Position numbers and translations under genes: made by a program
The notes under the pieces: generated by a model
Told to the model about the DNA's origin: nothing
What the model saw: only the letters and a program-made list of their open reading frames with translations
The model's database searches: none
NCBI RefSeq assembly: GCF_029360665.1
Contig: NZ_JARDUB010000006.1
Location: 310,001 to 374,000, forward strand
DNA length: 64,000 nucleotides
Direction of reading: 5' to 3'
Source of the DNA: Eudoraea chungangensis
GTDB taxonomy: Bacteria; Bacteroidota; Bacteroidia; Flavobacteriales; Flavobacteriaceae
Shown here: piece after piece, positions 8,042 to 12,910 of the stretch
Numbering within the stretch: position 1 is the first letter of the stretch
How the letters are laid out: each line of letters begins with the position of its first letter

Positions 8042-10234
8042 TTATGCCAAAATACTTTCGTGTCCGGAATCCTTTACAAAAAGACATGTGCCCTTTACGC
8101 TGTTTCTTATATCTTGGATAAACTCAAATTCTAATCGATCGTCCATTCCAAAAATATTCAAATCTGCAGATGGGGCAGCAGATAGGACATTCTTAAAATG
8201 TCCAATTTTTACTTCTATGAGTGTATTTGGTAGTCTAGCCAAACTAACCAAGGAATTAAGAAATTCTAAGGCCTTATCCATTTCTTTTTCATCATGCAGA
8301 ACCATTATCAGACGAATTTTGGCATTCCAATTCTTCTTTAGTTTATAGGCTATTAAGGTAGATAGGTCTAAATTACCAAAATCCCAGCCTAGAGTCCAAT
8401 TATTACGCCTATCACTAACCCAAACATTAATAATATTGCGTTCACCTAAAAGGGCAGTTGGATGGGATGCATATAATAAAACACCTATCTCGAGACGAAT
8501 ACACTCCTTTATAACAGGTCTAATCTCTGTATCATAGTCATCATGATCTTGTAGATTAAGAAACACAATATTAGGTCTAAAAAACGCACCCTTTAAAGCC
8601 TGATTACTATAGTTTACACCTAGAGAAAAATTCTCCGTATTGATTACTGTCCAGCTAGAAAACACCCCTTTAAGCCTAAATGCTTCCGACATAGAAGCCA
8701 ATTGTTCACTCAATAATGTATTGCTCTTAAGTGGTTCTATTCCCAATAATTTTATTGAACCTTTTGGCTTTGCTATGTTTTTTAAAAACTGAAAATTACC
8801 CTTTGCGCCGGCCAAATCCCTTATAGGTACCATTAAATTGGGCTTCCAGGCTCTCTGCTGCATAGATTTCATTCCCCAGGTATGCTTTGCTGCCCATTCT
8901 GCAAATGAAACAAATAAACCAGATCTCACATCTTCAAAAGGTGTTTCTATGTGTTGTCTAGATAGAAACCAATAGACTAAGAATACAATACTGATGGTTA
9001 AAAGGCTTATGGTAGGATTAATTATAAACATGGCTAATACAGAGGAACACAGCCCCAGCCAAGGAATCCATCTCTTTACCTTAAATACCGGACGATAACT
9101 AATAAGCCCTAAATTTTGTTCTATGATTACTACTATGTTAATCATGGCATAGGTAATCAGAAAAAATAGGGTCACCAAGGGTGCAACAGCGTTTAAATCC
9201 CTAAGTAACATAGTGAGAAAGATCATTATACCAGTAACAATCATTGCATTCCTCGGTTGTCCATTAGCACTTTGCCCTTCCAAAAATCCGCTATATGGCA
9301 GTACCCTATGTTGCCCCATTGCGAATAAAATTCTGGATGAACCAACTAACGAAGCCAAAGCCGACGAAAAAGTTGCTCCTAAAATTCCTGCAATAATTAA
9401 GGGGCCAAAATAGGCCTTATCGATGATGATATTATAATTAGAGATTAACTCATTTTCGGTCGCAGTTCTGGCTAGCCAATACGCCAAGACCATATAAATC
9501 ACAAAGCTTATCCCTATGGCCCATAAGGTACCAAGGGGAATGCTTCGTTTTGGGTTTTTTAGCTCTCCCGACATATTTGCACCTGCCATGATTCCGGTAG
9601 AGGCAGGAAAAAAAACAGCAAAAACTATCCAAAATCCGGATCCAGTAAAGCCATTTTCTGGAGATCCTTTAAAATTTCCCCATTTCACAGCCTCTTCTAT
9701 TGGTATGCCCATAGAACCGTGATAGGCTGCTAACACTATAGAGACAAGCGATAAAATTATGATTACCATAATTAGAAACTGAGTCTTTATGGCTAAATCA
9801 GCACTTATATAAGCTATTGTTAGGAGTACAAAAAAAACTAGAATATCAATAACAAACGGATCATGATGTGGAAATATAAATAGCCAACCCTCGCGAAAAC
9901 CAAAAATATACATGGTAACCGCCAAACCCTGGGAAACAAATCTGGGGATACCCAAACTACCACCGACCTCTAATCCTAATGATTGGGATATAATAGCGTA
10001 TGCTCCACCTGCCCCAATTCGGATATTTGTAGTAATAGCAGACATAGAAAGGGCTGTTGTAAGGGTAATCATAAAGGATATAATAATGATTAACCAAGCA
10101 CCTAAAAGCCCAGCGTTTCCTACCACCCAACCCATTCGAAGGTACATAATAACACCTAGGATAGTTAATATCGTAGGAGTGAACACACCCGCAAAAGTTC
10201 CAAACTTTTTCCCAGCTTGTAATTCTGAACTCAT
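8042..10234 (-). CDS. Cation-chloride cotransporter-like / APC-superfamily permease
   Basis: An inner-membrane transporter of about 730 residues with 12 predicted helices. The N-terminus 'GVFTPTILTILGVIMYLRMGWVVG' and the later 'GANMSGELKNPKRSIPLGT' and 'SSRILFAMGQHRVLP' are typical of the SLC12 (Na-K-Cl cotransporter) branch of the APC superfamily. The last ~250 residues form a hydrophilic cytosolic domain, as in SLC12 proteins. The transported ion cannot be settled by eye. The ATG at 10234 is preferred over a TTG five codons upstream. It is divergent from the NTF2-like gene across a 225-bp region containing a direct repeat. Confidence 0.82.
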   Translation of the reverse strand: MSSELQAGKKFGTFAGVFTPTILTILGVIMYLRMGWVVGNAGLLGAWLIIIISFMITLTTALSMSAITTNIRIGAGGAYAIISQSLGLEVGGSLGIPRFVSQGLAVTMYIFGFREGWLFIFPHHDPFVIDILVFFVLLTIAYISADLAIKTQFLIMVIIILSLVSIVLAAYHGSMGIPIEEAVKWGNFKGSPENGFTGSGFWIVFAVFFPASTGIMAGANMSGELKNPKRSIPLGTLWAIGISFVIYMVLAYWLARTATENELISNYNIIIDKAYFGPLIIAGILGATFSSALASLVGSSRILFAMGQHRVLPYSGFLEGQSANGQPRNAMIVTGIMIFLTMLLRDLNAVAPLVTLFFLITYAMINIVVIIEQNLGLISYRPVFKVKRWIPWLGLCSSVLAMFIINPTISLLTISIVFLVYWFLSRQHIETPFEDVRSGLFVSFAEWAAKHTWGMKSMQQRAWKPNLMVPIRDLAGAKGNFQFLKNIAKPKGSIKLLGIEPLKSNTLLSEQLASMSEAFRLKGVFSSWTVINTENFSLGVNYSNQALKGAFFRPNIVFLNLQDHDDYDTEIRPVIKECIRLEIGVLLYASHPTALLGERNIINVWVSDRRNNWTLGWDFGNLDLSTLIAYKLKKNWNAKIRLIMVLHDEKEMDKALEFLNSLVSLARLPNTLIEVKIGHFKNVLSAAPSADLNIFGMDDRLEFEFIQDIRNSVKGTCLFVKDSGHESILA

Positions 10235-10364
10235 ATAATAGTTTACCAATCGGAGATCAAAAGATAAGCATAAAGTTGATTATATAGTCGAATCAATACC
10301 CATATTACATTATTAAAGAATACACAACATCATTTCTTGACAATCCTTTGTACAGCTATATGGC

Positions 10365-10459: not shown

Positions 10460-11383
10460 ATGAAAAAAATTATGCTCACTATGCTACTTTTTACAGTAGC
10501 CATAGGTTATTCTCAGAAAAAAAACAACGGAAAGGTTTTTGATGAACATCCCGCCATTACGGTGGTAAATGAAATGTTTGCTGCCTTTATTGCTGGTGAT
10601 GCCGATAAAGTTGCCAGTTATTTATCCGAAGACTTCAAGGGATATAACGGTTCTGATGGAAGAACTAATGCTAAGGGAACCACAAAAGAAGAAATGATAG
10701 AAGATGTTGCTTTTTGGCAAGAGGAGACTATGTATCTTTCCCTAGAACCAACCATGCAGGCGTATCCCGACGCAATTGAGTATAAGGGGGGTCAGGTCTG
10801 GGTCCAAACATGGAATACTTTAAAAGGAATGCACAAAAAAACCGGTGTAAAATTAAACATGCCTTTTCACAGGTTAATTCTAATGGATGAGGATAATAAA
10901 ATCAAGACAATGATTAGCTATTATGACGAGAGAGTTTATAGCGAAATTGGCAGAAGTCTTGCCGACAGAGAAAATGGGACAATATATAATCACCACGAAA
11001 ATATCAATACAGTAAGAAAGGTTATGACTGCCTTTGAAAATAAAGATTTTGAAACTGCCTACAGTTATTTTGCAGAGGATGCAGATTTTATGACCTTAGA
11101 AACTGGGAACGAGCGCATGACAATGGATCAAATAAAGGAGAGAAATAAGGGAATTTGGGAAACCTATGAGGTTACTTTTGATGTTCAAGGTTATCCAGAT
11201 TACTTGGAATACGACCTTAGAGACGGAAGAGTGGTACAATCCTGGTGGACCGCCAGATTGAAGCGTAAATCGGATGGTGAAAAATTCAATGTTCCTGTTT
11301 TATACCTACATGATTTTGATAAAGATGGAAAAATTGTAAGATCTAGCGCTTATTATAGCACTAAGGTCTTAGATTCCAAGTAA
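10460..11383 (+). CDS. Secreted protein with two NTF2/SnoaL-like domains
   Basis: After a signal peptide (MKKIMLTMLLFTVAIGYSQ) come two homologous domains of about 130 residues. The first begins 'ITVVNEMFAAFIAGDADKVASYLSEDF' (about 33-59) and the second 'INTVRKVMTAFENKDFETAYSYFAEDADF' (about 182-210). Both end in a Tyr-rich strand (MISYYDERVYS and RSSAYYSTK). This is the SnoaL/NTF2 cone fold, used by isomerases, hydrolases and binding proteins; no catalytic residues are assigned. The internal duplication probably makes an intramolecular dimer. It is monocistronic, with a terminator directly after the gene. Confidence 0.8.
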   Translation: MKKIMLTMLLFTVAIGYSQKKNNGKVFDEHPAITVVNEMFAAFIAGDADKVASYLSEDFKGYNGSDGRTNAKGTTKEEMIEDVAFWQEETMYLSLEPTMQAYPDAIEYKGGQVWVQTWNTLKGMHKKTGVKLNMPFHRLILMDEDNKIKTMISYYDERVYSEIGRSLADRENGTIYNHHENINTVRKVMTAFENKDFETAYSYFAEDADFMTLETGNERMTMDQIKERNKGIWETYEVTFDVQGYPDYLEYDLRDGRVVQSWWTARLKRKSDGEKFNVPVLYLHDFDKDGKIVRSSAYYSTKVLDSK

Positions 11384-11414
11384 ATATTACACCAAATACC
11401 AACTTTTAACCATG

Positions 11415-11445
11415 AAAGAGCGCTATTTAGGCGCTCTTTTTTTTT
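11415..11445 (+). terminator. Rho-independent terminator
   Basis: The stem AAAGAGCGC/GCGCTCTTT with a 7-nt loop is followed by an uninterrupted T run to 11445. It lies 32 bp after the stop of the NTF2-like gene. Confidence 0.9.
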
Positions 11446-11589
11446 AGGGTCAATTAGGTAGTATATCGATAAAAATATTTATAACCTGTTAATAATGTGT
11501 TGTTTACAAAATATATGAGTCTGGACTAGGCCCTTGCAGTATATCGAAAAACACAACAAAACAGCCTAAAAATGAATAATAATTATGAA

Positions 11590-11810
11590 ATTTGTCCCAT
11601 TGGGAAGAAGAATAAACTACCCAGAATATGAAAACATAGCGGTTCCCCCATTAATGCTATAACCGTTTAGTTATACTATTCAATAGCCGCTAAAAAAGCT
11701 ATGACGTATTAAATGGCGGGATTCAAAATTTAGTTTTTGATTTGGTTCCTATGCCATAAGGAACGTGGTGTTAAACCCAGAAAGCAGGATATTCTTATCC
11801 TGCTTTTTTA
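11590..11810 (+). ncRNA. Candidate structured RNA or leader (novel, unassigned)
   Basis: The region between the 11415 terminator and the dehydrogenase gene at 11873 holds no convincing gene, only ORFs of 19 and 25 codons. It contains consecutive perfect stems: TCCCA/TGGGA (11595-11605), an outer TAGCGG/CCGCTA (11637-11642 with 11687-11692) enclosing TATAAC/GTTATA (11658-11675), TCAAAA/TTTTGA (11723-11740), GTTCCT/AGGAAC (11745-11764), and finally a strong terminator hairpin. This could be a free-standing small RNA or a regulatory leader for the dehydrogenase 60 bp downstream. I do not recognise it as tmRNA, RNase P or SRP RNA. The 5' end is unknown. A 10-bp direct repeat AGTATATCGA (11460-11469 and 11538-11547) lies upstream. 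Confidence 0.45.
11781..11809 (+). terminator. Rho-independent terminator upstream of dehydrogenase gene
   Basis: A 10-bp perfect stem, AAAGCAGGAT/ATCCTGCTTT, with a 6-nt loop is followed by a T run. It ends 63 bp before the ATG at 11873. No gene precedes it closely, so it ends either a small RNA or an attenuated leader transcript. Confidence 0.85.
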
Positions 11811-11872
11811 TTCTTAATGAAGGTGTTTTAAGTATATTTAAATAATATTAACATCCTTATTATGCTTGCGGA

Positions 11873-12910
11873 ATGAAGGCAGTTATCTATAAAGAATTTA
11901 ATGGTCCTTTGGCTGTAAAAGAAGTAAAAGATCCCTGTGCTTCCAAAAATGGAGTGGTTATTCAGGTAAAGGCTACAGGACTATGCCTTAGTGATTGGCA
12001 TGGTTATGTGGGCCATGATCCAGATATTTTACTACCCCATGTACCCGGACATGAATTTGCCGGACTAATAGTTTCAATTGGTTCGGGGGTAACTAAATGG
12101 AAGGTAGGGGATAGGGTAACGGTTCCTTTTGTAGGCGGATGTGGAAAATGTAATTACTGTAAAACGGGAAACCAGCAAGTGTGTGATGATCAGTTTCAAC
12201 CTGGTTTTACTGCCTGGGGTTCTTTTGCTGAATATGTCTTTATTGCCAATGCCGATCTAAATTTAGTAGGTCTCCCTAAGGCCATGCTTTTCGAAGAAGC
12301 AGCCGCTCTTGGCTGTAGATTTATAACAGCTTACAGAGGAGTAAGGCAGCAAGGTAATCTAATGGAAAATCAGAGTATTGGCATATATGGCTGCGGCGGT
12401 GTAGGTTTGTCTGCCATATTGATTGCCAAAGCAATGGGGGCAAAGGTTATCGCGATCGACATTAACGACAACAAATGTGCTTTGGCCAAATCTTTAGGCG
12501 CAGACTATGTTATCAATGCTAAGAAGGCAAATCCAGTTAGAGAAATAATTGAATACAGTGACGGAGGTGTAGATATTTCCTTAGATGCCCTGGGCAGTAC
12601 CCAGACATGTCTTGATTCTATTCATAGTCTCAAAAAAAGAGGGAAACATATTCAAATTGGACTAATGTCGGGCGTAGATGCTTCACCATCTCTTCCTATG
12701 AACACCGTAATTGCGAAAGAATTAGAAATACTGGGTAGCCATGGAATGCAAGCCCATGCATATAATGAGATGTTTCAATTTATTGAGAAAAACAATATCG
12801 ATCTGTCTGCTTTAATCTCTGATACTATTAATTTAAATGAAATCCCAACTCGTCTCCCCAATTTGTTTTCCAATCCTTCTCTCGGAATTACCATAGCCAA
12901 TTCTTTTTAG
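11873..12910 (+). CDS. Zinc-dependent alcohol dehydrogenase (MDR family)
   Basis: A medium-chain dehydrogenase of 345 residues. Catalytic zinc ligands are Cys38 (GLCLSDWHG) and His60-Glu61 (GHE). The structural-zinc cysteines are all present at 90, 93, 96 and 104. The Rossmann motif is GCGGVG, followed by 'KVIAIDINDNK', where the Asp suggests NAD preference. The substrate is unknown; class-typical substrates are alcohols or polyols. It is transcribed toward the sugar operon on the opposite strand and lies directly downstream of the terminator-bearing leader, which may control it. Confidence 0.88.
   Translation: MKAVIYKEFNGPLAVKEVKDPCASKNGVVIQVKATGLCLSDWHGYVGHDPDILLPHVPGHEFAGLIVSIGSGVTKWKVGDRVTVPFVGGCGKCNYCKTGNQQVCDDQFQPGFTAWGSFAEYVFIANADLNLVGLPKAMLFEEAAALGCRFITAYRGVRQQGNLMENQSIGIYGCGGVGLSAILIAKAMGAKVIAIDINDNKCALAKSLGADYVINAKKANPVREIIEYSDGGVDISLDALGSTQTCLDSIHSLKKRGKHIQIGLMSGVDASPSLPMNTVIAKELEILGSHGMQAHAYNEMFQFIEKNNIDLSALISDTINLNEIPTRLPNLFSNPSLGITIANSF

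Follow-up and report, generated by a model that had tools for sequence, protein, structure and literature searches.

Small RNAs (sRNAs) derived from the 3' ends of mRNAs have been described (excerpts of PMC9438474 and PMC7821165), and mRNA 3' untranslated regions (3'UTRs) are portrayed in the first of these excerpts as a playground for sRNA evolution. From the excerpted text of two further papers, UTR-derived and intergenic sRNAs are known in Bacteroides (PMC7366714), and promoters and sRNAs have been reported in Flavobacterium (PMC9723704). Because bacterial small RNAs change fast, their origins are hard to trace.

The element described here resembles CpxQ, DapZ, SdhX, MicL and NarS, as these appear in the excerpts of PMC9438474, in that it runs from the last codons of a gene into its 3'UTR and shares the terminator of that gene, an arrangement found in 8 of 9 relatives within the genus of the window genome. 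It further agrees with the mRNA 3'-end-derived sRNAs of that source in overlapping a stop codon and in its narrow phylogenetic range (8 genus relatives), and departs from them, as far as the excerpts go, in occurring also without the gene (in the window and in a second genus, g128) or beside it (in a third, g150). The window copy has no attached gene and combines the hallmarks of an intergenic, terminator-ended sRNA, namely the lack of an open reading frame (ORF), a terminator of its own and a conserved primary sequence. It is in this respect like GibS and other Bacteroides thetaiotaomicron sRNAs, which are intergenic, restricted to a narrow clade and end in a Rho-independent terminator (excerpts of PMC7366714), and like Rfp18 of Flavobacterium psychrophilum, which is intergenic and conserved in a narrow clade (excerpts of PMC9723704). 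Unlike GibS and Rfp18, with which it was compared through Rfam alone, the element descends visibly from the end of a protein gene, and it is known here from sequence. Our literature searches, which bound this statement and leave absence unproven, yielded neither an sRNA that outlives its parent protein gene nor this element.

Layout of the locus

The window is the whole 64 kb stretch of DNA that was analysed (G000:C6:310001-374000). The features considered below are:

10460-11383, forward strand: SnoaL-like protein gene (307 aa), found before the DUF4382 gene in relatives within the genus too
11414-11440, forward strand: SnoaL gene terminator, aligned to the SnoaL terminator of the relatives
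11534-11569, forward strand: degraded copy of the relatives' small upstream ORF (LQYIEKHNKTA-stop, without ATG)
11543-11550, forward strand: ATCGAAAA box, 201 nt upstream of the core
11714-11720, forward strand: TGGCGGG arm, 7/7 as in the relatives, with a possible pairing to the core (alternative fold)
11731-11812, forward strand: whole element, small RNA candidate, its extent taken from the covariance model
11736-11764, forward strand: conserved core, 28/29 identical to the majority of the relatives
11745-11764, forward strand: hairpin P2, GTTCCT (11745-11750) with AGGAAC (11759-11764), that is GTTCCT-N8-AGGAAC, with arms identical in 13/13 sequences
11779-11808, forward strand: element terminator, with compensatory differences in the stem relative to the relatives
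11873-12910, forward strand: zinc-dependent alcohol dehydrogenase (ADH) gene, unlinked to the element in G001, G151 and G335

A preliminary description had presented the intergenic region as gene-free, enclosed by two terminators and rich in hairpins. Its first two points hold: 11384-11872 contains no ORF of at least 30 aa, and the two intrinsic terminators (11414-11440 and 11779-11808), the second of which ends 64 nt before the ADH start codon, compare with 0.3 expected from shuffles. As to the third, there are indeed 8 perfect stems of at least 5 bp in 11572-11777, but the count does not exceed chance (shuffle mean 5.1; at least 8 in 34 of 300 shuffles), and the value observed for 11446-11777 was reached in 120 of 300. 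Hairpin richness is therefore a description of the region, not evidence, and was dropped as such. The predicted fold between both terminators has a z-score of +0.48, and that of 11500-11815, terminator included, one of -2.1; the opposite strand (z -1.4) was discarded as the candidate RNA. Judged by comparison with related genomes, the signal of the region is the conservation of 11714-11812 and not the number of hairpins.

6S RNA, Flavo-1 and Bacteroidales-1 are structured noncoding RNAs. The preliminary description had put them forward for comparison, and the element differs from all three in giving no covariance-model match, whether in the region (E up to 10) or in the units of g128 and g150 (E up to 5). 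Across the entire 64 kb window, on either strand, no Rfam family reached its gathering threshold; the best sub-threshold match, STnc420 (25 bits, gathering score 70), falls on the opposite strand across the first terminator and was rejected. The element is a candidate new RNA, without counterpart in Rfam.

The element in the genus is the end of a DUF4382 gene

Of the 9 other genomes in the genus, 8 gave significant matches to 11736-11812 in a DNA search of 99 genomes, with a shorter piece in G009; the ninth, G007 (60% complete), gave no element match. The ADH of G007 (L056:1498-2538) is a diverged paralogue (54% identity) in another neighbourhood. At each of the eight matching loci (L002-L009) the match covers the end and the terminator of an intact gene, 289-298 codons long, for a DUF4382 lipoprotein; the element runs through the last codons, the stop codon and the 3'UTR of this gene into its terminator. 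Pfam assigns DUF4382 (PF14321) and CarboxypepD_reg to 3/3 relatives' proteins tested. DUF4382 is reportedly named in an archaeal glycoproteomics study. The gene order is SnoaL - DUF4382 - ADH in 7/8 relatives and SnoaL - DUF4382, with no ADH, in G001 (L006).

Although the DUF4382 proteins of the eight relatives are 70-94% identical, the 3' end of the gene is conserved beyond what this level of divergence would suggest. Within the last 15 codons, 12/12 degenerate codons with an invariant amino acid are identical in all eight relatives, as against 30/135 elsewhere in the gene (p 8e-8), and 30-nt windows from -59 to just beyond the stop codon are 0.95-0.99 identical, compared with 0.34-0.90 elsewhere. 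On the strength of these comparisons, constraint on the 3' end of DUF4382 in the genus acts on the nucleic acid, beyond the need of the protein. Conservation of this kind, expected of a 3'-end-derived sRNA, is seen both in the codons and in the free-standing copies described below. A search of 60 genomes for GGTTCCTRTGCCATRAGGAAC, allowing up to 2 mismatches, was positive in 9, every one a member of this genus and with the sequence at this locus, and G004 and G005 each have one additional 2-mismatch place; GGTTCC..GGAAC occurs in the window genome at this locus alone.

The window copy lacks the gene

The window genome lacks the DUF4382 gene, the sole match being one of 33% to the C-terminal domain within a 937-codon frame. 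Positions 11736-11759 nevertheless translate as F-D-L-V-P-M-P-stop, which we read as a vestige of the DUF4382 C-terminus in the core. Relative to the relatives, changes affect 1/29 columns of the core, 0/7 of the TGGCGGG arm, 12/19 and 7/15 of the linkers and 10/29 of the terminator, where they are largely compensatory; the difference between the core and the adjoining linkers (19/34) has a p of 5.6e-6. Fourfold degenerate sites of ADH, with L006 (no ADH) and L008 (partial ADH) left out, are 22-40% identical, which shows neutral sites to be saturated, and if neutral identity were 0.40, the probability of at least 28/29 identical positions would be 1.3e-10. A covariance model built on the eight genus relatives alone (R1), and so without the window in its training set, gave this copy a score of 63.9 bits (E 9.7e-14).

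The leader of the window (about 11520-11713) cannot be aligned; an alignment to g128 was unconvincing and was set aside, as its local score was equalled in 14 and in 84 out of 300 shuffles. The spacer between the element terminator and ADH is also poorly conserved. With its changed linkers, the window copy lacks part of the relatives' element and could be decaying.

Gene-free and separated copies occur in other genera

In a search of 198 genomes with R1, the eight relatives scored 107-112 bits, the window 63.9 and G151, of another genus (g128), 77.4, with all other matches at or below 35.4 bits. These weaker matches, together with one of 39.8 bits in G082, look like terminators and were set aside. 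The second genome of g128, G335, scored 73.3 bits, which places the element in 2/2 genomes of that genus. In both, it follows a permease gene and is convergent with a hydrolase gene, and DUF4382 is recognisable by its last 12-17 residues only; G151 was not among the 107 of 249 genomes listed with a DUF4382 match. The G151 locus also carries a 70%-identity relative of a transporter gene of the window (8042-10249). Between G151 and G335, 86/90 positions are identical from -22 to +68 and 105/120 from -172 to -52 (windows summed), while the fourfold sites of the flanking genes agree at 50/99 and 39/91.

The g128 element (L106:1501-1584 and its partner in L110) lies on the same strand as the permease gene upstream, with no terminator seen between them. 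For this reason it may form the 3' end of the permease mRNA, which would be the same RNA under another host gene.

A second model, R2, built from genus, window and g128 sequences, matched 7 of 397 family genomes (E up to 1e-6), which fall into three genera, and in doing so found g150, a genus outside its training (G401, 65.2 bits; G173, 61.4 bits). In G173 and G401, the element forms a separate noncoding unit that lies between an intact upstream DUF4382 gene, ending in a terminator of its own, and ADH; the unit keeps traces of DUF4382 coding sequence. From -115 to about +64 the two genomes are identical at 171/180 positions, so that a noncoding leader of about 115 nt is conserved with the element; other adjacent noncoding windows are identical at 99/180 and 37/60, and fourfold sites at 43/126 (ADH) and 44/119 (DUF4382). 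Overall, the free-standing copies are 95-96% identical, as compared with 34-51% for fourfold sites. The third g150 genome, G482 (87% complete), had no match at E up to 1e-5. In a third search (R3) of 395 genomes of the order, only the window matched at E up to 1e-8.

Structure and covariation

Across 13 sequences, 99.7% of the cells of inner P1, P2 and the terminator are paired, and 35 of the 42 columns within columns 7-48 are invariant. In the terminator, 5 pairs have changed on both sides, amounting to 13 cells; this number of cells was reached by none of 500 shuffles and the count of two-sided pairs by 3 of 500. P2 and inner P1 never vary, and covariation is therefore no test of either. Outer P1 shows one two-sided change, from C-G to U-A, and is broken in g150, which led us to discard it as a universal feature; in the window, P1 is missing from the minimum-energy fold. 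The compensatory changes on which the preliminary description had made its candidate depend are thus present in the terminator stem (5 pairs) and in one P1 pair, and absent from P2.

RNAalifold favours an alternative pairing of TGGCGGGGAAT with GGTTCCTGTGCCA, which also appears in the g150 folds and is kept in the genus and g150 and partly in the window; the TGGCGGG arm is missing in g128. As P2 and the TGGCGGGGAAT-GGTTCCTGTGCCA pairing are predicted to be mutually exclusive, a conformational switch is conceivable.

A probable RNA gene descended from a protein gene

Taken as a conserved RNA element with a terminator, independent of the protein gene, the locus is well supported by these comparisons. 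The early suggestion of a candidate new RNA is supported by the R1 match of 63.9 bits, the constrained stand-alone copies in two other genera and the covarying terminator. Our favoured explanation, which we hold to be reasonably probable, is that an sRNA gene which arose from the 3' end of a DUF4382 lipoprotein gene occupies 11731-11812, probably together with a leader beginning near 11714 or farther upstream. For most members of the genus this RNA would still form the tail of the DUF4382 mRNA, from the last codons through the stop codon and 3'UTR to the terminator; the window genome would have kept the RNA after losing the protein gene. The candidate RNA would be transcribed rightward, end at the terminator and be either processed or separately initiated, with a length of roughly 70-130 nt or more. 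By likeness to mRNA 3'-end-derived sRNAs, we propose as most likely an action in trans in which the invariant core (GAUUUGGUUCCUGUGCCAUAAGGAAC, then GUGG..GUUAAA) would base-pair.

The main competitor of this reading, a possibility we consider unlikely, is a dead remnant: the window copy would be a functionless leftover of a lost DUF4382 gene, in decay now after having been conserved until recently. It would account for the absence of the gene from the window genome, the unalignable leader at about 11520-11713, the weakened P1 and the changes at 19/34 linker columns, and is opposed by the 1/29 changes in the core and 0/7 in TGGCGGG, by the compensatory nature of the terminator changes and by the strong constraint on gene-free copies in two other genera. 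Those copies imply that the element functions without need of the gene, and together with the frozen codons they led us to demote a simple pseudogene relic. Less probable still is a cis-acting 3'-end element of the upstream transcript, a signal for stability, processing or termination with no role in trans. That the element is an mRNA 3' end in eight relatives, and that in G151 and G335 it follows a same-strand permease gene with no other terminator seen between, speak for such a signal; against it, a terminator divides the element from the DUF4382 gene in G173 and G401, where a noncoding leader of about 115 nt is conserved alongside, and from SnoaL in the window, and a generic 3' signal has no need of a nearly invariant 29-nt core.

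The invariance of P2, without covariation, and the ATCGA boxes close by would suit an inverted repeat in DNA, used for protein binding or recombination, but a covarying same-strand terminator follows 13/13 copies, and GGTTCC..GGAAC is found at one locus in the window genome and not in viral contigs; a DNA site is thus very improbable. The preliminary description had also considered a leader attenuating the dehydrogenase gene, in keeping with the ADH start 64 nt past the terminator in the window. This proposal is rejected, and we give it hardly any weight, because the element is present without an ADH gene downstream in G001 and faces the convergent hydrolase gene in G151 and G335; the terminator-ADH spacer is, moreover, poorly conserved. 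Most implausible is a short coding sequence for a tiny peptide, IWFLCHKE, read from the core in another frame: the frame is open across the core, but its wobble positions are no less invariant than the others in 13 sequences, no ATG lies over the core, and in some copies the frame enters the covarying terminator.

To return to the sRNA gene, a bolder version of this reading, which we offer tentatively and rate below even, is that it has been caught at different stages of exit, within the last codons in one clade, beside an intact gene in a second, and surviving gene loss in a third and in the window, possibly with a conformational switch. If this were true, the lasting product of the locus would be the RNA and not the protein. 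The DUF4382 tree separates the genus and g150 into distinct clades, and the ADH tree groups the window with g150 (89/89, not firm), while genome placement puts it with the genus. The history may consequently have been either one in which the RNA was released once, early on, and fusion came later, or one of several losses of the gene. One sequence-recognisable RNA with gene-attached and gene-free forms in neighbouring genera would allow a direct test of mRNA 3' ends as nurseries of independent sRNAs. It adds a family missing from Rfam in a bacterial family, probably Flavobacteriaceae, with few characterised sRNAs, and is a warning that intergenic gene remnants may be functional RNAs.

The upstream box and the small open reading frame

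The ATCGAAAA box lies up to 250 nt upstream of the DUF4382 start in 8/8 genus relatives. Among close DUF4382 orthologues it is found in 11/14, or in 11/16 loci with a recognisable start, the 13 of 29 DUF4382 loci without an identified start codon having been left out of the count. Its background is 4 places in the 128,000 strand positions of the window; a second ATCGA is at 11465-11469. The box also precedes 5/5 free-standing copies, at -201 in the window and at -122, -120, -145 and -146 in the others. This common box suggests that the RNA keeps the control of the old gene. It may resemble LytTR-type sites. TTG with TAGTTTTT stands at -71/-72 in G173/G401, with counts like those of shuffles, and promoter scans found -7-like boxes about as often as in shuffles, without excess.

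The DUF4382 gene of the relatives is preceded by a small ORF of 22-40 aa (L003:517-625 and the matching spacers of L002 and L004-L009). This ORF reads M-[YH]-[YF]-I-E-K...K-I-R-K-L-A-L and is full in 6/8, a stop cutting it in L002 and L009. Its counterpart in the window, 11534-11569, ranks 1 of 127,828 window positions with a position-specific scoring matrix of an 87-column block. As a conserved entity this ORF (MYYIEK..KIRKLAL) was rejected, being degraded in the window and startless in g128, where the differences mostly change amino acids. The part of the region that is conserved more widely is the ATCGAAAA box. In the family at large, close DUF4382 genes share a conserved GTAnTTCATCGAAAA-like box 74-124 nt ahead of their start (11/14; L059-L072), possibly a regulatory site.
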